The notes beneath the pieces were generated by a model. That model was not told the origin of the DNA. It saw only the letters and a program-made list of their open reading frames with translations, and did no database searches. Source: Sphingomonas sp. (lineage in GTDB: Bacteria; Pseudomonadota; Alphaproteobacteria; Sphingomonadales; Sphingomonadaceae). Taken from it: DNA of 46,365 nucleotides. Positions 1 through 46,365 of this stretch are shown here, piece by piece (position 1 is the first letter of the stretch; every line of letters begins with the position of its first letter). The stretch lies in the NCBI GenBank assembly GCA_017418975.1, contig JAFOMG010000007.1, positions 1 through 46,365 of the forward strand, read 5' to 3'. The translations under genes were made by a program, and so were the position numbers.

Positions 1-37
1 GCGGGGATGACGGGCGTTGCTGATTGAGTCGTGGCCC

Positions 38-181
38 TAGGTTGAGAACCCAAACAAGTATTTGATTTTCTACCGTCATCCCGGCCTTGAGCCGGGATCC
101 CGCTTCTTCTTGCGCTGGCGAGACAGCGGGACCCCGGCTCAAGGCCGGGGTGACGAAGGAGGAATATGAGTCCTCAACCTA
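38..181. repeat. Nested palindromic repeat element, copy 1
   Basis: The inner inverted repeat has 31-base arms at 74-104 and 125-155 that pair with only a few mismatches or G-T pairs around a 20-base loop. Outer arms at 38-49 (taggttgagaac) and 170-181 (gtcctcaaccta) are inverted copies of each other with one mismatch. A related copy lies at 28460-28611 and a rearranged one at 46118-46250. The right outer arm contains the stop codon of the pterin dehydratase gene (cta at 179-181, read as TAG on the minus strand). Bases 1-14 read like the end of a further short repeat seen again at 46261-46290. It resembles REP/BIME-type or MITE-like elements; no transposase is present. Confidence 0.85.
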
Positions 182-466
182 GAGCAGCGCGTCGATCGCC
201 TGCGCCATCTGGATGTCGCGGGTGGAGAGGCCGCCGGCGTCGTGCGTGGTCAGCAGGATGTCGACCTTGTTCCACACGTTCGACCATTCGGGATGATGGT
301 CCGCCTTCTCGGCGAGCAGCGCGACGCGCGCCATGAAGCCGAAGGCCTGGTTGAAGTCGCGGAACGCGAAGTGCCGGGTGATCGCGTCGCGCGCCGGATC
401 CCATTGCCAGTCGGGCAGCGCCGCGAGCGATTCCCCGCGAAGTCCATCCGTCAGACGCGCCACCAT
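179..466 (-). CDS. phhB: Pterin-4a-carbinolamine dehydratase
   Basis: A 95-residue protein, the normal family length. It dehydrates 4a-hydroxytetrahydropterin, the by-product of aromatic amino acid hydroxylases such as PhhA, in the cytoplasm. The family signature is visible in the middle: [16 protein letters not shown] followed by [11 protein letters not shown], carrying the two adjacent active-site histidines and the later TH. Two ATG codons are adjacent (469 and 466). The second is chosen because GGGAGG sits five bases before it and only two before the first. It is divergent from the metallopeptidase gene, with 48 bases between starts, so the promoters must be close. Its TAG stop lies inside the outer arm of the repeat at 38-181. 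Confidence 0.92.
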
Positions 467-514
467 CATTGCCTCCCTTGCCGTAGCTCCATTGTCCGGC
501 CTATTCCCCCCGGC

Positions 515-26842: not shown

Positions 26843-28462
26843 ATGACGCTTCGCACCGATCGCCGCTCGCTTCTCCTCACCGGCACGCTGGGCCTTGGCG
26901 CGCTGGCCATTCCGGGCTTCTCGCTGGCCCAGGCGCTGGCCACGGGCTTCACGCATTCGGTCGCCAGCGGCGAGCCCGGGCAGGACACGATGCTGCTCTG
27001 GACCCGCTATGTTCCCGCCGATGGCGGCGCGGTGAAGCTCAGGGCCGAGATTTCGAAGACCGCGGATTTCGCGAAGATCGCCTCGGGCGGCGAGCAGATC
27101 ACCGGCCCGTGGCGCGACCACACCGCCAAGATCACCGTCGAGGGGCTCGAGCCGGGCACCAGCTATTTCTATCGCTTCGTCGGCCCCGATGGCAGCTTCT
27201 CGCCGGTGGGCCGGACGAAGACGCTGCCGGCGGGCAATGTCGGCCGCTTCGGCATCGGCGTCTTTTCCTGCGCGAACATGCCGTTCGGCTTCTTCAATGC
27301 CTATGGCCATGCCGCGGCACGCGCCGATATCGACCTGTGGGTGCATCTCGGCGACTATCTCTACGAATATAAGCGGGGCGGCTATGCGCCGGCCGGCGGC
27401 GCGGTGGCGGATCGCTGGCCCGAGCCGGCGACCGAGATGGTCCATCTCGCCGATTATCGCCTGCGCTATGCCAGCTATCGCAGCGATCCCGATCTGCAGG
27501 AACTGCACCGGGTCAAGCCGATGCTGATCCAGATGGACGATCACGAATCGACCAACAACAGCTGGGAAGGCGGCGCGCAGAACCATCAGCCGGACGAAGG
27601 CGACTGGAGCGTCCGCAAGGCGGCGGCGCTGCAGGCGTTCAAGGAATGGCTGCCGGTCTCGGAAACGCCCTGGGGCAGCTACGACATTGGCGGCCTGGCC
27701 ACGCTGTTCCGCACCGAGAGCCGCCTGCTGGCGCGCAGCGACGAGCCCGATCTCGCCCCGCTGTTCCGCTCCGCCGACGCGCAGAAGGCGCTGATCGCCT
27801 TTCGCGACGGCGAATTGCAGGATCCCGCGCGCACCATGCTCGGCACCGAGCAGGAGGTGTGGCTCGGCCATGCGCTGCGCAAGTCGGTGCGCGCCGGCCA
27901 GAAGTGGCAGCTGGTCGGCTTCGGCACGATCATGGGCAAGCAGCGCATGCCCGAGCAGGCGCTCGACTGGATCAAGCCCGATGCCCCGGCCCGCACCCGC
28001 GCCTATGTCCAGTCGGGCGTGATCGCCAGCAAGCTCGGCGTGCCGTCGGACCTCGACAATTGGGGCGGCTTCCCGGCGGCGCGCGCGCGCTTCCTAAAGT
28101 CCGCCCAGGCGGCGGGCGCGAACCTCGTCGTGCTGTGCGGCGACAGCCACAATGCCTGGGCGTTCGACCTGGGGCAGGACGGCAAGCCCGCCGGCGTGGA
28201 GTTCGCCGGCCACAGTGTCACCTCGCCGGGCTATGAGAACAGCACCACCACCGATCCGAAGATCATCGCCGCCGGCCTGGTCGCCGCCAATCCCGAGCTG
28301 AAATGGTGCGACACCAGCCGCCGCGGCTATATGGCGCTCACGCTCACGCCGGAAAAGGCGAGCAACGACTGGGTGTTCATGGACACGGTCACCCAGCGCA
28401 CCACCAAGGCCAGCGTGGGGCACACCGCGGTGGTGACGCGCGGCCGCAACGTGATGGCATAG
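26843..28462 (+). CDS. phoD: Alkaline phosphatase D (PhoD family)
   Basis: A 539-residue exported phosphodiesterase/phosphomonoesterase. The N-terminus has a Tat signal (TDRRSLLLTGTLGLGALAIPG), as expected for a metalloenzyme folded before export. An Ig-like N-terminal domain (about 35-130) precedes the catalytic domain with GIGVFSCANM, the metal site HLGDYLYEY, QMDDHESTNN and LCGDSHNAW. It would release phosphate from organic esters in the periplasm or outside. Its TAG stop at 28460-28462 lies in the left outer arm of the repeat that follows. A possible Pho box precedes it. Confidence 0.94.
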   Translation: MTLRTDRRSLLLTGTLGLGALAIPGFSLAQALATGFTHSVASGEPGQDTMLLWTRYVPADGGAVKLRAEISKTADFAKIASGGEQITGPWRDHTAKITVEGLEPGTSYFYRFVGPDGSFSPVGRTKTLPAGNVGRFGIGVFSCANMPFGFFNAYGHAAARADIDLWVHLGDYLYEYKRGGYAPAGGAVADRWPEPATEMVHLADYRLRYASYRSDPDLQELHRVKPMLIQMDDHESTNNSWEGGAQNHQPDEGDWSVRKAAALQAFKEWLPVSETPWGSYDIGGLATLFRTESRLLARSDEPDLAPLFRSADAQKALIAFRDGELQDPARTMLGTEQEVWLGHALRKSVRAGQKWQLVGFGTIMGKQRMPEQALDWIKPDAPARTRAYVQSGVIASKLGVPSDLDNWGGFPAARARFLKSAQAAGANLVVLCGDSHNAWAFDLGQDGKPAGVEFAGHSVTSPGYENSTTTDPKIIAAGLVAANPELKWCDTSRRGYMALTLTPEKASNDWVFMDTVTQRTTKASVGHTAVVTRGRNVMA

Positions 28463-28611
28463 GTTGGGGACGCATCTTTTCCTGTCCCTGCCCTGTTTTC
28501 CACCGTCATCCCGGCCGTGAGCCGGGATTCCGCTTCTTCTTCCGTGAGCGAGGCAGCGGGACCCCGGCTCAAGGCCGGGGTGGCGAAGGAAGAATGGGTA
28601 TCCTCAACCTA
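28460..28611. repeat. Nested palindromic repeat element, copy 2
   Basis: Inner arms lie at 28504-28534 and 28555-28585 (31 bases, few mismatches, 20-base loop). Outer arms lie at 28460-28470 (taggttgggga) and 28601-28611 (tcctcaaccta), inverted copies with one mismatch. The architecture matches copy 1. The left outer arm starts with the TAG stop of phoD (plus) and the right outer arm contains the TAG stop of ubiB (minus), so the element fills the whole space between two convergent genes and terminates both reading frames. Confidence 0.88.
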
Positions 28612-30111
28612 AAGCACCAGCGCCATGGCCAGGATCGCCGCCCCGCCCAGCAGCGCGGCCGCGATCCAGCCGGCACCGCGCCGGATCGCGGCGGCGGTCG
28701 CGGCGTCGTTCGGCGGCTCGGCCTCGATCCGCCGGATCGCGGCGCGCAGCAGCCGCGGCGCATCGTCGCCGAGCCCCGCCAGCGTCCAGGCGAGCATGCC
28801 GCCGCTCGCCGCCAGCCGCCCCGGCGCGAAGCGCGCCGCCACCAGCCGCGCCGCCGCCCGCCGGATCGCGTCGGACAGGTCGAAGCCCGGCGCGATGCGC
28901 GCGAGCACGCCGTCCATCGTCACAAACGCCTTGAACACCAGCAGCAGGTCCGGCGGCATCACCAGCCCTTCCTCGCGCAGCAGCCGCAGGAAATCGGGCA
29001 CCATCTCCGCCATGACGATGCGCCCGCCGCCATGCCGCTGGACGATCTGCTCGGCGGCGCGATCGATGCGGCCGCGCGGCACGCCATGCCCTTCGGACCA
29101 GAGCGCCAGCGTCTCCGCGAGCGCGCGCGGATTGCCCCAGGCCAGCGATAGCACGAAGCCCAGAAACTCCTCGCGCCGTCCCGGCCCGATATGGCCGATC
29201 GAGCCCAGGTCGAGCAGCGCCAGCCGGTCGCCGGGCAGGCAGAGCAGGTTGCCGGGGTGCGGATCGCCGTGAAAGCGGCCATGGACCAGCACCATCTCGA
29301 TGACGAGATCGGCGCCCAGCGCGGCGATCGCCGCGGGATCGATCCCGCGCGTTTCCAGTATTTCGGCCGAGAGCGGCTTCACGCCCTCGACATAGTCCAT
29401 CACCAGCAGCGTCTCGCTGGTCCATTGCCAGTGGATGCCGGGTACGAGCACGCCGGGCTGGCCCGCCAGGTCCTCGCGGATCCGATCGGCGTTGCGGCCT
29501 TCCTGGGTGAAGTCCAGCTCCTCGAGCATCGCCTGGCGCAGTTGCCGCGCCAGCGCCACCGGCTCGAAGCGCCGCGCCTCGGCGCTGCCCCGCTCGACCA
29601 GCGCGGCCAGCTCGGCGATCAGCCGCATGTCGGCCTCCATCGCGCGGCGGATGCCGGGGCGGCGGACCTTGAGCACGACTTCGCTTCCGTCCCTCAATCG
29701 GGCGCGATGGACCTGCGCCATCGACGCGGCGGCGAGCGGTACCGGATCGAAGCGCGCAAACGCGGCCTCGGGCGGCTCGCCCAGCGCTTCCTCCACGGCC
29801 GCGCGGATCGCCTCGAAGTCCAGCGTGGGCGCGTCGCTGTGCAGCAGCTCGAGCTCGGCGATCCATTCGGGGGGCAGCAGGTCGCCGCGCGTCGCGAGGA
29901 TCTGGCCGATCTTGACGAAGCTGGGGCCCAGCGCCTCGAGCGTCAGCCGGGTGCGGCGCGGGAGCGGGAGCGCGCCCGCCTCCGCCTCCGCCCCCTCGTT
30001 CGCGAAGCCCAGCCGGGCGAGCAGCACGCCCAGGCCGAAGCGCGCGGCCACGGCCGCGATCTCGCCCACCCGGTCGCGGTCGCGGGCAGTGGTGGCAATC
30101 AGCTTGATCAT
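28609..30111 (-). CDS. ubiB: UbiB/ABC1 family atypical kinase-ATPase
   Basis: A 500-residue membrane-attached protein needed for ubiquinone biosynthesis. The ABC1-specific KxGQ motif is at 67-70 (ALGPSFVKIGQILATRGDLLP); the nucleotide lysine is in SEVVLKVRRPG; the catalytic and metal stretches are HGDPHPGNLL and LALLDLGSIGH. The C-terminus ends in hydrophobic spans (GWIAAALLGGAAILAMALVL), as in UbiB. No ubiE or ubiJ is adjacent, so ABC1-family naming is safer than a strict UbiB assignment. A nearly equal open frame in another phase (28604-30121) is a GC-driven shadow. Confidence 0.88.
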   Translation of the reverse strand: MIKLIATTARDRDRVGEIAAVAARFGLGVLLARLGFANEGAEAEAGALPLPRRTRLTLEALGPSFVKIGQILATRGDLLPPEWIAELELLHSDAPTLDFEAIRAAVEEALGEPPEAAFARFDPVPLAAASMAQVHRARLRDGSEVVLKVRRPGIRRAMEADMRLIAELAALVERGSAEARRFEPVALARQLRQAMLEELDFTQEGRNADRIREDLAGQPGVLVPGIHWQWTSETLLVMDYVEGVKPLSAEILETRGIDPAAIAALGADLVIEMVLVHGRFHGDPHPGNLLCLPGDRLALLDLGSIGHIGPGRREEFLGFVLSLAWGNPRALAETLALWSEGHGVPRGRIDRAAEQIVQRHGGGRIVMAEMVPDFLRLLREEGLVMPPDLLLVFKAFVTMDGVLARIAPGFDLSDAIRRAAARLVAARFAPGRLAASGGMLAWTLAGLGDDAPRLLRAAIRRIEAEPPNDAATAAAIRRGAGWIAAALLGGAAILAMALVL

Positions 30112-33447: not shown

Positions 33448-35136
33448 ATGATCCGCACCACCACGCCGCTGGCCCTTGCGCTGATGCTGGCGCTGCCCGC
33501 CCATGCCCAGAACGCGCCCGCTCCGGCGCCCGCCCCGGCCCCCAGCGCCGCCGAGCGCAATGCGATCGTCAATGCCGAGCTGCCCGCCGACCAGGCGGCG
33601 CTCAAGAGCCATGTCATGTTCCTCGCCTCGGACGCGCTGAAGGGCCGCGAGGCCGGCAGCCCCGAATTCGACATCGCCGCCCAGTATGTCGCGTCGCAAT
33701 TCTACGCGGCCGGGCTCAAGCCGGCGGGCGACGAGGGCGGCTATCTGCAGAAGGTGCCGCTGGTCAGCGCCAAGCTGGACGGCCCCGGCACGATGACGGT
33801 GACGGGCAAGGGCGGCACGCCGGTCGCGCTCGAATTCGGCAAGGATTTCGTTTCCTCGGCCAATCCCGAGACGCCCAGCTACAGCGTCACCGCGCCGGTG
33901 GTGTTCGTCGGCTATGGCATCGTCGGCCAGGGCCGGGACGACTATAAGGGCGTCGATGTGAAGGGCCGGATCGTCGCCTATTTCGGTGGCGCGCCCGAGA
34001 GCTTCCCCGGCGAGGTCGCCGCGCATTTCTCCAATCCGGCCGCCAAGGCCGAGATCGCGGCGAAGCACGGCGCGATCGCCACGATCACGATTGAATCGCC
34101 GCGCGTCGGCAAGGCGCCACCGTTCAGCCTCTATATCACCTACGCGTCGCGGTCGCGCTTCACCTGGGGCAATCCCGACGGCACCGGCCATATCGCCGCG
34201 CCGGGCACGCCCTCGGCCGGCACGGTCAGCCTGGTCGGCGCCGAGAAGCTGTTCGCCGGCGCCAGGCAGAAATGGGCCGATATCGCCAAGGCGGCCGCGG
34301 CGCCCGACGCGGTGTTCAAGGCGGAGGCGCTGCCGGTGACCGTCACCGTCGCCGCCAAGACCGCGCTCACGCCGGTGAAGAGCTACAATGTCGCCGGCAT
34401 GCTGCCGGGCAGCGACCCGGCGCTGTCGAAGGAAGTCGTGGTCCTTTCCGCGCATCTCGACCATATCGGGGTCGGCCGGCCCGACAAGACCGGCGACACG
34501 ATCAACAACGGCGCGCTGGACGACGCGGTCGGCATCGCCTCGCTGATCGAGGAGGCCAAGCGCTTCAAGACGGCGGGCACGAAGCCGCGCCGCTCGATCC
34601 TGTTCCTCGCCGTCACCGCCGAGGAGAAGGGGCTGGTCGGCTCGGACTATTTCGCCAACAACCCCACCGTGCCGCTGTCGAGCATCGTCGCCGACGTCAA
34701 TCTCGACATGCCGATCATCACCTACAAGTTCCAGGACATCGTGGTGTACGGCGCCGGCCATTCCACGCTGGGCCCGATCGTCGAGCGGGCGGGCAAGGCG
34801 ATCGGCGTGCCGCTGTCGGACGATCCGCTGCCCGGCGAGAACATCTTCGTGCGCTCGGATCACTATAATTTCGTCCGCAAGGGCGTGCCCTCGGTCTTTC
34901 TCTGGCCCGGTGCCGGCGGCCCGGGCCGTGCCGCGATCGACGATTTCATGAAGAACCATTATCACCGGCCCTCGGACGAGATCGGCCAGCTGCCGGCGAT
35001 CGACTGGGAATCGGGCGTGCGCTTCGTCGACGTGAACTATCGCATCGCCCGCGAGATCGCCGATGGCGAGCAGCGGCCGATGTGGAACAAGGGCGATTTC
35101 TTCGGCCTCACCTATAATGGCGCGGGGGCCAAGTGA
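33448..35136 (+). CDS. Secreted M28 family metallopeptidase, copy 1 of 3
   Basis: A 562-residue protein with signal peptide MIRTTTPLALALMLALPAHA and a short Pro-Ala linker. The M28 aminopeptidase fold is split by an inserted PA-like domain (about 125-290). All five zinc-ligand positions are visible: SAHLDHIG (near residue 336), NNGALDDAVG, TAEEKGLVG (catalytic and ligand glutamates), ADVNLDMP and RSDHYNFV. It probably releases N-terminal amino acids from peptides in the periplasm or outside. It is the first of three tandem paralogues joined by four-base or near overlaps. Confidence 0.92.
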   Translation: MIRTTTPLALALMLALPAHAQNAPAPAPAPAPSAAERNAIVNAELPADQAALKSHVMFLASDALKGREAGSPEFDIAAQYVASQFYAAGLKPAGDEGGYLQKVPLVSAKLDGPGTMTVTGKGGTPVALEFGKDFVSSANPETPSYSVTAPVVFVGYGIVGQGRDDYKGVDVKGRIVAYFGGAPESFPGEVAAHFSNPAAKAEIAAKHGAIATITIESPRVGKAPPFSLYITYASRSRFTWGNPDGTGHIAAPGTPSAGTVSLVGAEKLFAGARQKWADIAKAAAAPDAVFKAEALPVTVTVAAKTALTPVKSYNVAGMLPGSDPALSKEVVVLSAHLDHIGVGRPDKTGDTINNGALDDAVGIASLIEEAKRFKTAGTKPRRSILFLAVTAEEKGLVGSDYFANNPTVPLSSIVADVNLDMPIITYKFQDIVVYGAGHSTLGPIVERAGKAIGVPLSDDPLPGENIFVRSDHYNFVRKGVPSVFLWPGAGGPGRAAIDDFMKNHYHRPSDEIGQLPAIDWESGVRFVDVNYRIAREIADGEQRPMWNKGDFFGLTYNGAGAK

Positions 35137-35138
35137 GC

Positions 35139-36725
35139 ATGAAGCGCGCATTCCTCCTGGCCGCGACCCTGCTCGCGGCGGCGCCCGCCTTCGCCCAGGA
35201 TCTCGGCAAGGACGCGGCGGCGCTGAAGGCGCATGTCCAGTTCCTCGCCTCCGATGCGATGAAGGGCCGCGACACCGGCTCGCCCGAGCTGGCCATCGCC
35301 GAGCAATATGTCGCGGCACAGATGCTCGCGGCGGGGCTCAAGCCCGCGGGCGCGGGCGGCGGCTGGCTCCAGCCGGTGCCGCTGGTCGCCTATAAATCGG
35401 CCGATCATGGCACGCTGTCGCTCAACCGCGGCGGCGTCGAGACTGCGCTGGTCTGGGGCAAGGACTATGTCGCCCGCGCGGTGCCGTCGAACCCCAAGGT
35501 CGCGGTGTCGGGGCCGGTGGTCTTTGTCGGCTATGGCAGCGAGGCCGAGTATAAGGGCCTCAAGACCAAGGGCGCGATCGTCGCGGTGCTGCGCGATTCG
35601 CCGCACGACCTGCCGAGCGACATTCGCGCGCATTCCGGCCAGCCCGAGCAGCAGGCGGCGGTGGCCGCCCGCCACGGCGCCGTCGGCGTCATCCTGATCG
35701 AAGGCAATGCCCGCCACGCGATCTTTCCGTTCTCCGTCAGCGTCGGCTATGCGCAAAGCGAGGCGATGACCTGGGCCGGCTCCGAAGCCGGCGCCGGCGC
35801 ACCGCCCTTCGCCTATGTCGGCTTCGAAGGCGCCGCCAAGCTGTTCGCCGGTTCGAAGATCCAGTGGGAGGCCGTGCTCGCGGCCGACAAGGCGGACCGG
35901 AAACTGCCGACCGGCGCGCTGGACGTAACCGCCACCGGCACCGCCAACACCGCGATCCGCACGCTCACCAGCAACAATGTCGCCGGCGTGCTGCCGGGTA
36001 CCGACAAGGCGGGCGAATATGTTGTCCTCTCCGCCCATCTCGATCATGTCGGCGTGGGCAAGCCGGATGCGAAGGGCGACACCATCTATAACGGCGCGAT
36101 GGACAATGCCGTCGGCACCGCCGCGATGCTGGAGGTCGCCCGGCGCTTCCAGGCTTCGGGCAAGGCGCCGCGCCGCTCGATCCTGTTCGTCGCGGTGACG
36201 GCGGAGGAGAAGGGCCTGGTCGGCTCCGAATATTTCGCCGCCAACCCCACCGTGCCCAAGGGATCGATTGTCGCCGACGTCAATCTCGACATGCCGATCC
36301 TGACCTATGACTTTGTCGATCTGGTCGCCTATGGCGCGGATCGCAGCACCCTGGGCAAGCTGGTCGAGGCGGCCGCCGCGGCCGAGGGCGTCAAGCTCGT
36401 CCCCGATCCCACGCCCGAGGAAGCCTCGTTCGTCCGCTCGGATCACTACAGCTTCGTCAAGGCGGGCATCCCGGCGGTCTCGCTCGATCTCGGGCCCGGC
36501 GGCCCGGGCGCGGCGGCGACCAAGGAGTTCCTCGACAAGCATTATCACCAGCCTTCGGACGAAGTGGGGCTGATCGACTGGAAGCAGGGGTTGCGCTTCG
36601 TCAGCCTCAACTATGCGATCGCCCGCGCCATCGCCGATGCCGATCAGAAGCCGGTGTGGAACAAGGGCGATTTCTTCGGCACGCTCTACAAGGGGCCGAT
36701 GGCCCAGGGGTCTTCGGAAAAGTGA
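35139..36725 (+). CDS. Secreted M28 family metallopeptidase, copy 2 of 3
   Basis: A 528-residue paralogue of its neighbours, with signal peptide MKRAFLLAATLLAAAPAFA. It starts the mature part with LGKDAAALKAHVQFLASDAMKGRDTGS, almost the same as copy 3. Zinc-site motifs are SAHLDHVG, NGAMDNAVG, TAEEKGLVG, ADVNLDMP and RSDHYSFV, all intact. The ATG at 35139 is preferred; a GTG at 35133 overlapping the copy 1 stop (GTGA) is also possible and adds two residues. Its C-terminus WNKGDFFGTLYKG matches the ends of copies 1 and 3. Confidence 0.92.
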   Translation: MKRAFLLAATLLAAAPAFAQDLGKDAAALKAHVQFLASDAMKGRDTGSPELAIAEQYVAAQMLAAGLKPAGAGGGWLQPVPLVAYKSADHGTLSLNRGGVETALVWGKDYVARAVPSNPKVAVSGPVVFVGYGSEAEYKGLKTKGAIVAVLRDSPHDLPSDIRAHSGQPEQQAAVAARHGAVGVILIEGNARHAIFPFSVSVGYAQSEAMTWAGSEAGAGAPPFAYVGFEGAAKLFAGSKIQWEAVLAADKADRKLPTGALDVTATGTANTAIRTLTSNNVAGVLPGTDKAGEYVVLSAHLDHVGVGKPDAKGDTIYNGAMDNAVGTAAMLEVARRFQASGKAPRRSILFVAVTAEEKGLVGSEYFAANPTVPKGSIVADVNLDMPILTYDFVDLVAYGADRSTLGKLVEAAAAAEGVKLVPDPTPEEASFVRSDHYSFVKAGIPAVSLDLGPGGPGAAATKEFLDKHYHQPSDEVGLIDWKQGLRFVSLNYAIARAIADADQKPVWNKGDFFGTLYKGPMAQGSSEK

Positions 36726-38356
36726 TCTTCCAACGCTTCCTCCTGGCGGTGGCGGCGCTGTTCGCCGCGCCGCTCGCCCAGGCGCAGACCGCGCCGCAGG
36801 CCGGGGCCCCGCTTCCGCCCGACCAGGCGGCGCTGAAGGCGCATGTCCAGTTCCTTGCCGCCGATGTCCTGCGCGGGCGCGAGGCGGGAACGCGCGACTA
36901 TGACGTGGCGGCCGAATATGTGGCGGCGCAGATGCTCGCGATCGGCCTGGCGCCCGGCGCGGCGGGAAGCTGGTTCCAGCCGTTCAAGCTGGTCTCGTAC
37001 AAGCCGGCCGAAAAGGCGAAGTGGAGCCTGGTGCGCGGCGCGATGGAGATCCCGCTCCAGTTCGGCATCGACTATGTCAACACGCCGGCGCCGGCCACGC
37101 CCGATTTCAAGGCCGAAGGCGGCATCGTCTTCGCGGGCTATGGCATCGTCTATCCCGAGGGGCGGCGCGACGATTACAAGGGGCTCGACGTGAAGGGGAA
37201 GATCGTCGCGATCCTTCCCGGCGTGCCCCAGGGGCTGCCCAACGAAGTCGAGGCGCATTTCGGCGACGACGAGCAGAAGGCAGCGATCGCGCAGCAAAAG
37301 GGCGCGGTGGCGGTGATCGTGCTCGAATCGCTCGCCCAGCGCGAGCAGATCCCGTTCGAGGCGATCGTTCCCTATTATGATTATGGGCGCACCACCTGGG
37401 CCCGCCCCGACGGCACTGCCTTCGCGATCGCGGCGGGCGCACCGCCGGTTGGCTATGTCGGCCCGGCCGGCGCGGAGAAGCTGTTTCAGGGCGCGAAGAT
37501 CCGCTGGGCGGACGTGCTCGCCGCCCAGCGCCGGGGCTCGAGGATTCCCACCGGGACGCTGCTCGGCACGCTCCGGGTCGCGAGCAAGACCAAGCTGGTG
37601 ACGCAGGCGACGCGCAACGTGGTCGGGCTGATCCCGGGCGGCGATCCGGCGCTGAAGGCCGAATATGTCGTTCTCTCCGCCCATCTCGATCATGTCGGCA
37701 TGGGGGATGCGGTCAATGGCGACCGCATCTACAATGGCGCCATGGACAATGCGATCGGCGTCTCGACCATGCTCGAGGTCGCGCGCAAGTTCGTCGCCTC
37801 GGGCGAGAAGCCCCGGCGCTCGATGCTGTTCGTGGCATTGTCGGGGGAGGAGAAGGGCCTGCTCGGCTCGGACTATCTCGTCCATTATCCGCCGGTCCCG
37901 AAGGCGGAGCTGGTCGCCGACGTCAACATGGACATGCCGATCCTGACCTATCCGCTGGTCGATGTCGTCGCGCTGGGGGGCGAGCGCTCCAGCCTCGGCC
38001 CGGCGATCGCCGCGGCGGCCGCGACCGAGGGGCTGGCCGTCGTCCCCGATCCGAGCCCGGAGGAGATGTTCTTCGTCCGCTCGGATCACTACAGCTTCGT
38101 GAAGTCGGGCATTCCGGCGGTGTCGATCGATACCGGCCCGGGCGGGCAGGGCGCAGAGGCGCAGAAGAAGTTCCTCGCGGAGAATTATCACAAGCCCTCG
38201 GACCAGATCGACCTGCCGTTCGACTGGAATTCGGCCGCCAAATATATGCGGCTGAACTATGCCGTCGCCCGCGCGCTCACCGACGCGCCCGCGCGGCCGC
38301 GCTGGAACAAGGGCGATTTCTTCGGGGTCCAGTTCGGTGGATATGGCGCGCAGTGA
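36722..38356 (+). CDS. Secreted M28 family metallopeptidase, copy 3 of 3
   Basis: A 544-residue paralogue with signal peptide MIFQRFLLAVAALFAAPLAQA. Zinc-site motifs are intact: SAHLDHVGMG, NGAMDNAIG, SGEEKGLLG, ADVNMDMP and RSDHYSFV. The PA-like insert differs most from copies 1 and 2 (for example FEAIVPYYDYGRTTW), suggesting a changed substrate range. The GTG start overlaps the copy 2 stop (GTGA). The end WNKGDFFGVQFGG is shared. It is followed by a 36-base gap with a hairpin before the SDR gene. Confidence 0.92.
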   Translation: MIFQRFLLAVAALFAAPLAQAQTAPQAGAPLPPDQAALKAHVQFLAADVLRGREAGTRDYDVAAEYVAAQMLAIGLAPGAAGSWFQPFKLVSYKPAEKAKWSLVRGAMEIPLQFGIDYVNTPAPATPDFKAEGGIVFAGYGIVYPEGRRDDYKGLDVKGKIVAILPGVPQGLPNEVEAHFGDDEQKAAIAQQKGAVAVIVLESLAQREQIPFEAIVPYYDYGRTTWARPDGTAFAIAAGAPPVGYVGPAGAEKLFQGAKIRWADVLAAQRRGSRIPTGTLLGTLRVASKTKLVTQATRNVVGLIPGGDPALKAEYVVLSAHLDHVGMGDAVNGDRIYNGAMDNAIGVSTMLEVARKFVASGEKPRRSMLFVALSGEEKGLLGSDYLVHYPPVPKAELVADVNMDMPILTYPLVDVVALGGERSSLGPAIAAAAATEGLAVVPDPSPEEMFFVRSDHYSFVKSGIPAVSIDTGPGGQGAEAQKKFLAENYHKPSDQIDLPFDWNSAAKYMRLNYAVARALTDAPARPRWNKGDFFGVQFGGYGAQ

Positions 38357-46117: not shown

Positions 46118-46250
46118 CTTCGTCACCCCGGCCTTGAGCCGGGGTCCCGCTGCCTTGCCCGCGAAAGAAGAAGCGGGACCCCGGCTCAAGGCCGGGGTGA
46201 CGAAGGGAGAATATGAGTCCTCAACCTGGTTGAGAACCCAAACAAGCCCT
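46118..46250. repeat. Nested palindromic element, rearranged copy 3
   Basis: Perfect 34-base arms (46118-46151 and 46172-46205) enclose a 20-base loop. This is the strongest hairpin in the window and closely matches the inner arms of copies 1 and 2. After it comes gagtcctcaacct directly joined to ggttgagaacccaaacaag, the right-end and left-end flanks of copy 1, as if two units were fused end to end. The left outer arm is missing. Confidence 0.8.
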
Positions 46251-46260
46251 TGAAACCACA

Positions 46261-46290
46261 CCCGTCATCCCCGCGAAGGCGGGGATCCAG
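46261..46290. repeat. Short REP-like hairpin
   Basis: ccccgc-gaag-gcgggg forms a six-base stem within cccgtcatccccgc...gcggggatccag. The gcggggatgacggg at bases 1-14 of the window is the reverse complement of its left half. Such cgtcatccccgcgaaggcgggg units are widespread REP-like sequences in proteobacteria. Confidence 0.65.
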
Positions 46291-46365
46291 GGTAGCAGGG
46301 GACGATCGAAGCAATCACGCGGGTGCGTGCCGGAAACGGCAAGGCGAGCCGCGCCGTCCTTGCCC

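Follow-up and report, generated by a model that had tools for sequence, protein, structure and literature searches.

TAG stop codons as probable landing sites of a small repeat family with IS427-like ends in Sphingomonas

The element described here is a 152-bp nested palindrome lying between the convergent genes phoD and ubiB of a Sphingomonas sp. It is carried by the contig JAFOMG010000007.1 (assembly GCA_017418975.1), the whole 46,365 nucleotides of which were analysed and are called the window below. The closest described systems are found in the IS427 group of the IS5 family of insertion sequences (ISs). The members of this group from Paracoccus are 832–865 bp long, nearly all of them make 2-bp duplications, some have two overlapping open reading frames (ORFs), and most have in the left end a site like that bound by the integration host factor (IHF) (PMC3281130, PMC3832669). 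The family of the palindrome has in common with IS1248, ISPaes2 and others of the group, as far as these are described there, the 2-bp duplication (TA in case of ISPaes2) and the IHF-like left-end site. It differs in being shorter (single units of 91 to ~236 bp, too short to hold a transposase gene) and in having a palindromic core that resembles repetitive extragenic palindromic (REP) sequences.

Three further systems are close in one respect or another. MITEPsy1 of Pseudomonas syringae, an IS5-type miniature inverted-repeat transposable element (MITE) of 100 bp, inserts at CTAG or YTAA; however, it makes a 4-bp duplication and has other ends, and no link with stop codons is reported in the accessible part of its description (PMC3189936). 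QMITE1 and QMITE2 of Coxiella burnetii, present in ~50 copies each, hit the affected functional genes at their 3′ ends, and one entry overlaps ubiB by 2 bp and contributes nothing but the stop to it. Their duplications, in contrast to ours, are variable (2–4 and 7–11 nt). The authors stated that the reason for the 3′ preference was unknown and suggested C-terminal tolerance (PMC5896051). The principle of keeping a stop has a published precedent in TnRErm46/ISRe46 of Rhodococcus equi (IS481 family), a transposon that targets CTAG and keeps the TAG stop of the target gene (PMC6794481). TnRErm46 is, however, an autonomous element with a transposase of another family and an NCTAGN duplication. There the duplicated target itself holds the whole TAG, whereas in the present family the duplication appears to be TA alone, the G being contributed by the element at each side. 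In the one open-access library that we searched, we found no account of this family or of the TA-plus-G geometry on both strands, nor any stop count over two genomes or empty-site evidence that the stop came first.

We consider it likely, and hold this with some confidence, that the palindrome belongs to a dispersed family of non-autonomous MITEs with IS427-like ends, which inserts at the TA of CTAG, mostly at TAG stops, and that these stops are rebuilt by the duplicated TA and the terminal G of the element.

The palindrome, its family and gene stops

The phoD–ubiB gap is filled exactly by the palindrome, which starts with TAGGTTGGGGAC and finishes with GTATCCTCAACCTA, and its terminal TAG and CTA are the stop codons of the two genes. 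This had been noticed in a first-pass annotation of the letters of the window, together with a second case in which the right arm of another copy (copy 1) supplies the TAG stop of phhB; both observations are borne out by the ORFs and coordinates (CTA at 179–181 is the stop of an ORF matching Pterin_4a, i.e. phhB-type). A small correction concerns the left arm of the palindrome, which reads TAGGTTGGG and is one mismatch away from the TAGGTTGAG given there. The nested palindrome folds into one hairpin of −95.3 kcal/mol (z −8.4 relative to shuffled sequences).

The window corresponds to contig 26 in a Sphingomonas assembly of 4.69 Mb and 32 contigs (the window genome). A BLAST search of this genome with the element gave 61 matches, in which both strands of one place were often counted (40 of 147 first-look candidates were scored). 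The end motif TAGGTTGAGRA had 37 exact occurrences, and 123 when one mismatch was allowed (100 of these 123 places were listed); the reversed pattern used as a control gave 33. The end motif is, therefore, not due to chance. Two types of end could be told apart, L (TAGGTTGAGAACCCAAACAAG) and R (TAGGTTGAGGACTCATATTC). Among 16 compared copies of the standard size class, 13 are 144 bp long, and several canonical copies are 97–99% alike, which may reflect recent spread. Other forms are 91 bp, or ~200–236 bp with a different interior. Compound elements were also observed, their two units abutting at, or having in common, a CCTAGG or CCTGG. At C25:155-174, C22:204-223 and C12:47200-47219 (contig and position) one CCTAGG is common to two units, as if the second had inserted into the TA of the first unit's end. 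Across the genus, the longer end motif (up to one mismatch) was found in 19 of 121 genomes. The window genome has 70 such ends, Sphingomonas leidyi (G046) has 24 and each of the others has five or fewer; single matches in the latter may be chance, since some genomes also have one or two matches to the reversed motif.

Next, we compared the element ends with the gene stops. Coding frames came from a codon-usage model seeded on phoD and ubiB, so these are our own gene calls rather than annotation. The 47 sites of the window genome are those that were fetched and bounded, not a full count; the 21 sites of S. leidyi were chosen with an end motif that tolerates hardly any damage to the end, a choice biased towards copies in which the TAG still serves as a stop. 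The terminal TAG was the in-frame stop of a gene in 28 of the 47 clusters (on one side in 25, on both sides in 3) and at 18 of the 21 S. leidyi sites, and this is the tabulation that the first-pass annotation had proposed. Seven of the 47 clusters lie at contig ends, some of them perhaps being halves of one insertion, and the count without them is 24 of 40. When scored by end, 31 of 73 coincided with an in-frame stop, 23 had the gene stop elsewhere, mostly before the element, and 19 had no facing gene end within 300 bp. The gene stops of clusters 33b and 46 are shown at −5 and +3 because their right boundary was an estimate. Genes reading out of frame into an element beyond a located end were not seen, whereas two thirds of random coding insertions would be expected to give this.

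Target site and gene context

The base before the TA is C at 58 of the 73 ends against a background of 30%, and ATAG outnumbers CTAG six-fold on the two strands together. CTAG itself is depleted about five-fold: 190 kb of fragments contained 120, inclusive of the elements' own, against 563 expected from composition.

As a control for the stop counts we scored 112 CTAG sites in 20 blindly placed stretches of 20 kb. Among them, 38 were at stops, 15 were coding, 24 were within 300 bp after a gene end and 35 were elsewhere. Another family end (C25:104294, L321:4292), one mismatch off the motif and situated at a gene TAG stop, came up inside this sample; it is outside the 47 tabulated sites and was counted as a control site. 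The element sites are at stops more often than the CTAG sample (28/47, p 0.004; 18/21, p 1e-5). The orientation of the neighbouring genes was scored at 55 sites, 36 of the 47 in the window genome and 19 of the 21 in S. leidyi. A convergent context was found for 34 of these 55 elements (21/36 here, 13/19 in S. leidyi) and for 16 of the 112 CTAG sites, and a divergent context for none of the 55 elements and for 15 of the CTAG sites.

These figures bear on the strongest of the alternatives, that the transposase needs nothing other than CTAG and that the link with stops is a by-product of a rare tetranucleotide that is often a stop, without any positional selection or benefit. We take this account seriously and lean against it. 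The fraction of blindly sampled CTAGs that are stops (38/112) is what it asks for, and CTAGs at convergent gene ends are stops as often (11 of 16) as the elements are (46 of 68, p 1.0), so that no excess is left. It is the orientation that it does not predict: the contexts of the elements differ from those of the CTAG sites and, therefore, survival or target choice is also likely to depend on context. A stop-seeking transposase was considered and rejected, as the excess disappears when the comparison is made with CTAG sites at convergent ends. Such an enzyme is not needed, because CTAG is rare, a third of the sampled CTAGs are already stops, and the copies are mostly at convergent ends where most CTAGs are stops; CTAG targeting together with survival at convergent gene ends is enough.

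Empty sites and orthologous stops

Clean empty sites, whose value the first-pass annotation had pointed out, were found in four cases, each with a single TA. Three are counterparts of window-genome copies (C17:72162, C17:110065 and C4:234627; empty sequences GGCCC-TA-TTCCCC, AGCCC-TA-CGCGCC and GAGCC-TA-TAGCC) and one is the reverse case, where the copy is at C1:373258 of S. leidyi and the window genome reads GGCCC-TA-GGCGC. The filled counterparts have TA on both sides, one TA of the pair being mutated in three of the four. A single TA in the empty state and TA on both sides in the filled state imply that C-TA-G would become C-TA-[GG...CC]-TA-G, with TAG surviving on both strands. At another place in S. 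leidyi (L241, C2 near 862880), TAGGGCCCTA lies between two convergent stops at a place occupied by an element in the window genome; this may be a footprint or a copy that has lost part of its interior.

We propose the following course of events. An IS5-family (IS427-group-like) transposase would act in trans on the ends of the element, and a gene reading in from either side would afterwards meet TAG at its old codon, the protein being unchanged. Copies landing in coding or promoter DNA would be removed by selection, leaving an accumulation at gene 3′ ends. This would be most marked between convergent genes, the place where CTAGs are mostly stops. A strong two-way hairpin between the genes would come with every copy, and a role as terminator or mRNA end is possible for it. 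The transposase, the mobility and any terminator function are all inferred here.

The hairpins could instead be domesticated two-way terminators or mRNA-end structures that selection maintains and that multiply through recombination, not transposition. We regard this as unlikely. The strong fold and the convergent bias would suit such a role, as would the presence of other palindromes in the phoD–ubiB gap of relatives, seen by eye. The sharp TA-bounded ends and the clean single-TA empty sites are, however, traits of transposition, and no T-tract terminator was found at 28300–28800. Seven relatives (L089, L096, L098, L119, L120, L122 and L130) have six different phoD–ubiB gap sequences, L098 and L122 being the same, and most of these look like unrelated palindromes. 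An Rfam scan of the window returned no family at gathering scores.

We then compared the stops with their orthologues. Of the 44 flanks of window-genome sites, 34 had a corresponding place in S. leidyi and 10 did not; in the other direction 17 of 19 S. leidyi flanks had a place here, one of them not a stop site. An S. leidyi orthologue was available for 28 of the 31 window-genome stop ends: TAG was at the same codon in 20 and TGA at the same codon in 3, and the stop was shifted by 1–4 codons in 5. TAG was the stop in 23 of the 28 orthologues; among genes situated away from elements the figure was 27 of 131 (p 1e-9). Among the 20 with TAG at the same codon, a diverged family end was seen at three (sites 5, 16 left and 35). 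No family end was recognisable at the other 17, where nothing from 60 bases before to 260 bases after the stop scored above 12/20 to either end; the end scores and the label 'no element' concern the present family alone. In the reverse comparison, 10 of the 16 stop-sited ends of S. leidyi had a window-genome counterpart with TAG at the same codon, and a family copy was present at one of these; TAA or TGA was at that codon in 5 (one poorly aligned), and the stop was shifted in 1. This comparison of sequences shows that the stop came first, the element occupying and rebuilding pre-existing stops rather than creating them.

The opposite order, in which an element inserts near a gene 3′ end, truncates or extends the frame and provides its own TAG as the new stop, is quite improbable. 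The five shifted orthologues, ubiB among them, and the three with TGA would fit it, as would the one shifted and five different stops of the reverse comparison. The 20 orthologues that have TAG at the same codon, 17 of them without a recognisable copy, and the lack of frames entering an element out of phase argue against it. The element as a supplier of stops was rejected, the S. leidyi orthologues mostly retaining the stop without the element. The first-pass annotation had suggested a mobile or duplicated element that spreads into gene 3′ ends while restoring a stop codon. What stands of this is a dispersed, mobile-looking element with TAG reading inward from both ends, its landing at gene 3′ ends, and the stop kept there; what does not stand is the element as the source of the stop, since the stop pre-exists. 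Orthologues that lack the element and have the same TAG had been named as evidence that would speak against the suggestion, and this is largely the picture obtained. Two coincidences with stops had also been thought to be beyond chance, and the chance rate, as estimated from the CTAG control, is higher than was assumed.

Affiliation, other copies and significance

The ends of the family (C-TA-GGTTGAG) resemble those of an 838-bp IS5-family (IS427-group-like) IS of Sphingomonas genome G106, and hence we describe the family as MITE-like. The G106 element, measured from TA to TA, has the ends TAGGTTGTGGACTCATAAG and TAGGTTGTGAACTCATAAAGG, similar and not identical to TAGGTTGAGGACTCATATTC and TAGGTTGAGAACCCAAACAAG of the family, and two ORFs with matches to DUF4096 (PF13340, 4.4e-31) and DDE_Tnp_1 (PF01609, 5e-15). 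Its length (within ~830–870 bp), its two ORFs and its DDE transposase are those of autonomous IS427-group elements, and here, too, the end of the element is the TAG stop of an ORF next to it. The exact IHF-site consensus was present in 21 of 45 L ends of the family, in none of 49 R ends and four times in 400 kb of sampled stretches. Of 30 transposase loci of the genus examined for ends, many have no credible terminal repeats; in three (L282, L283 and L261, the last being the G106 element) the end coincides with the TAG stop of a gene. Several further genus transposases lie between CTAGG ends and serve as illustration only. Ends of other IS427-type families are TAGGTCGAATCGACATT, TAGGACGGATCGACA and TAGGGTCA. 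Other CTAGG-ended sequences (TAGGTCGAATCGACA, TAGGACGGATCGACA) were observed exactly at gene TAG stops at L316:16284, L317:2945 and L343; at L343 the sequence follows a stop where S. leidyi carries the present family.

The REPs of alphaproteobacteria known as CGTC REPs have a CGTC tag, a stem of 8–9 bp, a loop of 4–5 bases and a short tail, and often form inverted pairs (PMC3733652). Hairpins with this tag (CGTC, not GTAG), with a stem of ~8 bp and often as an inverted pair, were present in 24 of 25 elements scanned, among them the phoD–ubiB copy with one. The core hairpins are thus the same as in CGTC REPs as described there, and those of the present family are enclosed in IS-type terminal repeats. 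Elsewhere in the genome, in the sampled stretches, 0 of 33 clusters of CGTC hairpins were inside TA-flanked terminal repeats (control 1/165); a comparable run of the terminal-repeat finder recovers 7 of 11 known copies. The family as a general vehicle for CGTC REPs was rejected on this count. That the family is a REP-type element moved by a REP-associated tyrosine transposase (RAYT) is hardly credible, since the ends, the TA duplication and the IHF-like site fit IS427-type elements and the accessible text on CGTC REPs reports no dedicated transposase for them, even though the core hairpins are CGTC-tagged and REPs also favour gene 3′ ends (PMC3733652).

The features of the window are listed in Table 1. 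The second hairpin of the phoD–ubiB copy went unscored in the scan because its tag has changed.

Table 1. Positions of the palindrome, its parts, the adjoining genes and the other family copies in the window
Feature	Position	Strand	Remarks
Focal element, nested palindrome, 152 bp	28460..28611	.	Family copy, diverged (80% to the 144-bp consensus)
phoD (PhoD-like phosphatase)	26843..28462	+	ORF; Pfam PhoD 1.3e-86
ubiB (ABC1 kinase-like)	28609..30111	-	ORF; Pfam ABC1 7.2e-65
Left terminal TA+G, phoD TAG stop	28460..28462	+	S. leidyi: TAG at same codon, element absent
Right terminal TA+G, ubiB TAG stop	28609..28611	-	S. leidyi ubiB ends one codon later, also TAG
Left terminal inverted repeat TAGGTTGGGGA	28460..28470	+	
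Right terminal inverted repeat TAGGTTGAGGA	28601..28611	-	
CGTC-tagged hairpin, REP-like cargo; 8-bp stem ATCCCGGC, 5-base loop	28504..28528	+	Hairpin scan; definition from PMC3733652
Second, inverted hairpin of REP-like pair	28559..28588	-	By eye; tag altered
Copy 1, canonical 144-bp element, L end left, R end right	38..181	+	100% to consensus
phhB-type gene (Pterin_4a)	179..490	-	TAG stop is copy 1 right end; ORF spans 179-883, start not determined
Copy 3	46118..46228	.	Right end retained (CTCAACCTG), left end lost

A second and longer element, whose L end abuts copy 3, reaches as far as the contig end. Both ends of the window (1–37 and 46230–46365) lie within or beside family copies, and the contigs C4, C6, C8, C11, C15, C19, C22, C25 and C29 likewise start or stop within or beside them; the end of C29 overlaps the start of C26, and the end of C6 that of C25. 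As several contigs begin or end in this way, the family repeat breaks the assembly. Apart from the family, three tandem genes on the same strand at 33448–38356, with repeats 72–76% identical at a spacing of 1.6 kb, are tandem paralogues.

Beside the lack of a stop excess at convergent CTAGs, several observations weigh against a MITE family inserting at pre-existing TAG stops. Mobility is deduced from empty sites, no transposition having been observed, and 19 of the 47 window-genome sites and 3 of the 21 S. leidyi sites have no stop at an end. A search for PF13340 gave four matches in the 32-contig assembly and one in S. leidyi, none with the exact ends of the family; three of the five have recognisable ends of another sequence and two have no credible ends. 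The phoD–ubiB copy lacks the IHF site, as do the two ends of the G106 IS. The phoD–ubiB copy is also the most diverged of the 16 compared (152 bp, 80% to the consensus), no clean empty site was found for it, and a search at 28300–28800 for a rho-independent terminator (G+C-rich hairpin plus T run) gave none. In S. leidyi, phoD ends identically (NVMA, then TAG), ubiB is one codon longer than here with a stop that is also TAG, and the gap of 56 bp has a different hairpin and no family element. As one insertion into such a gap would leave the gap in place, the present arrangement requires a deletion or replacement as well, and the comparison does not show a simple insertion at phoD–ubiB. A hybrid of two copies was considered as a candidate origin of the phoD–ubiB copy. 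Another site with both stops at its ends, C2:136107 of S. leidyi, also shows a shift.

A broader view, which we find slightly easier to doubt than to hold, is that TAG stops serve a whole guild of IS427-type elements as docking sites. With a G following the duplicated TA at the start of the members, TAG would be rebuilt on both strands at every insertion. Elements of this kind might occupy the gene ends of a dense genome at no cost and succeed one another at identical stops in sister species, and the CGTC REPs that they have captured might place two-way hairpins between convergent genes.

The proposed mode of insertion would give a simple reason for small mobile repeats piling up at gene 3′ ends, a preference called unexplained in one MITE paper (PMC5896051): the target tetranucleotide holds the stop, and the first base of the transposon keeps it. 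The family may also be a vehicle for some of the CGTC REPs, which are said to be without a transposase of their own (PMC3733652), and it would help to explain the fast turnover of hairpins in the convergent gene gaps of Sphingomonas.
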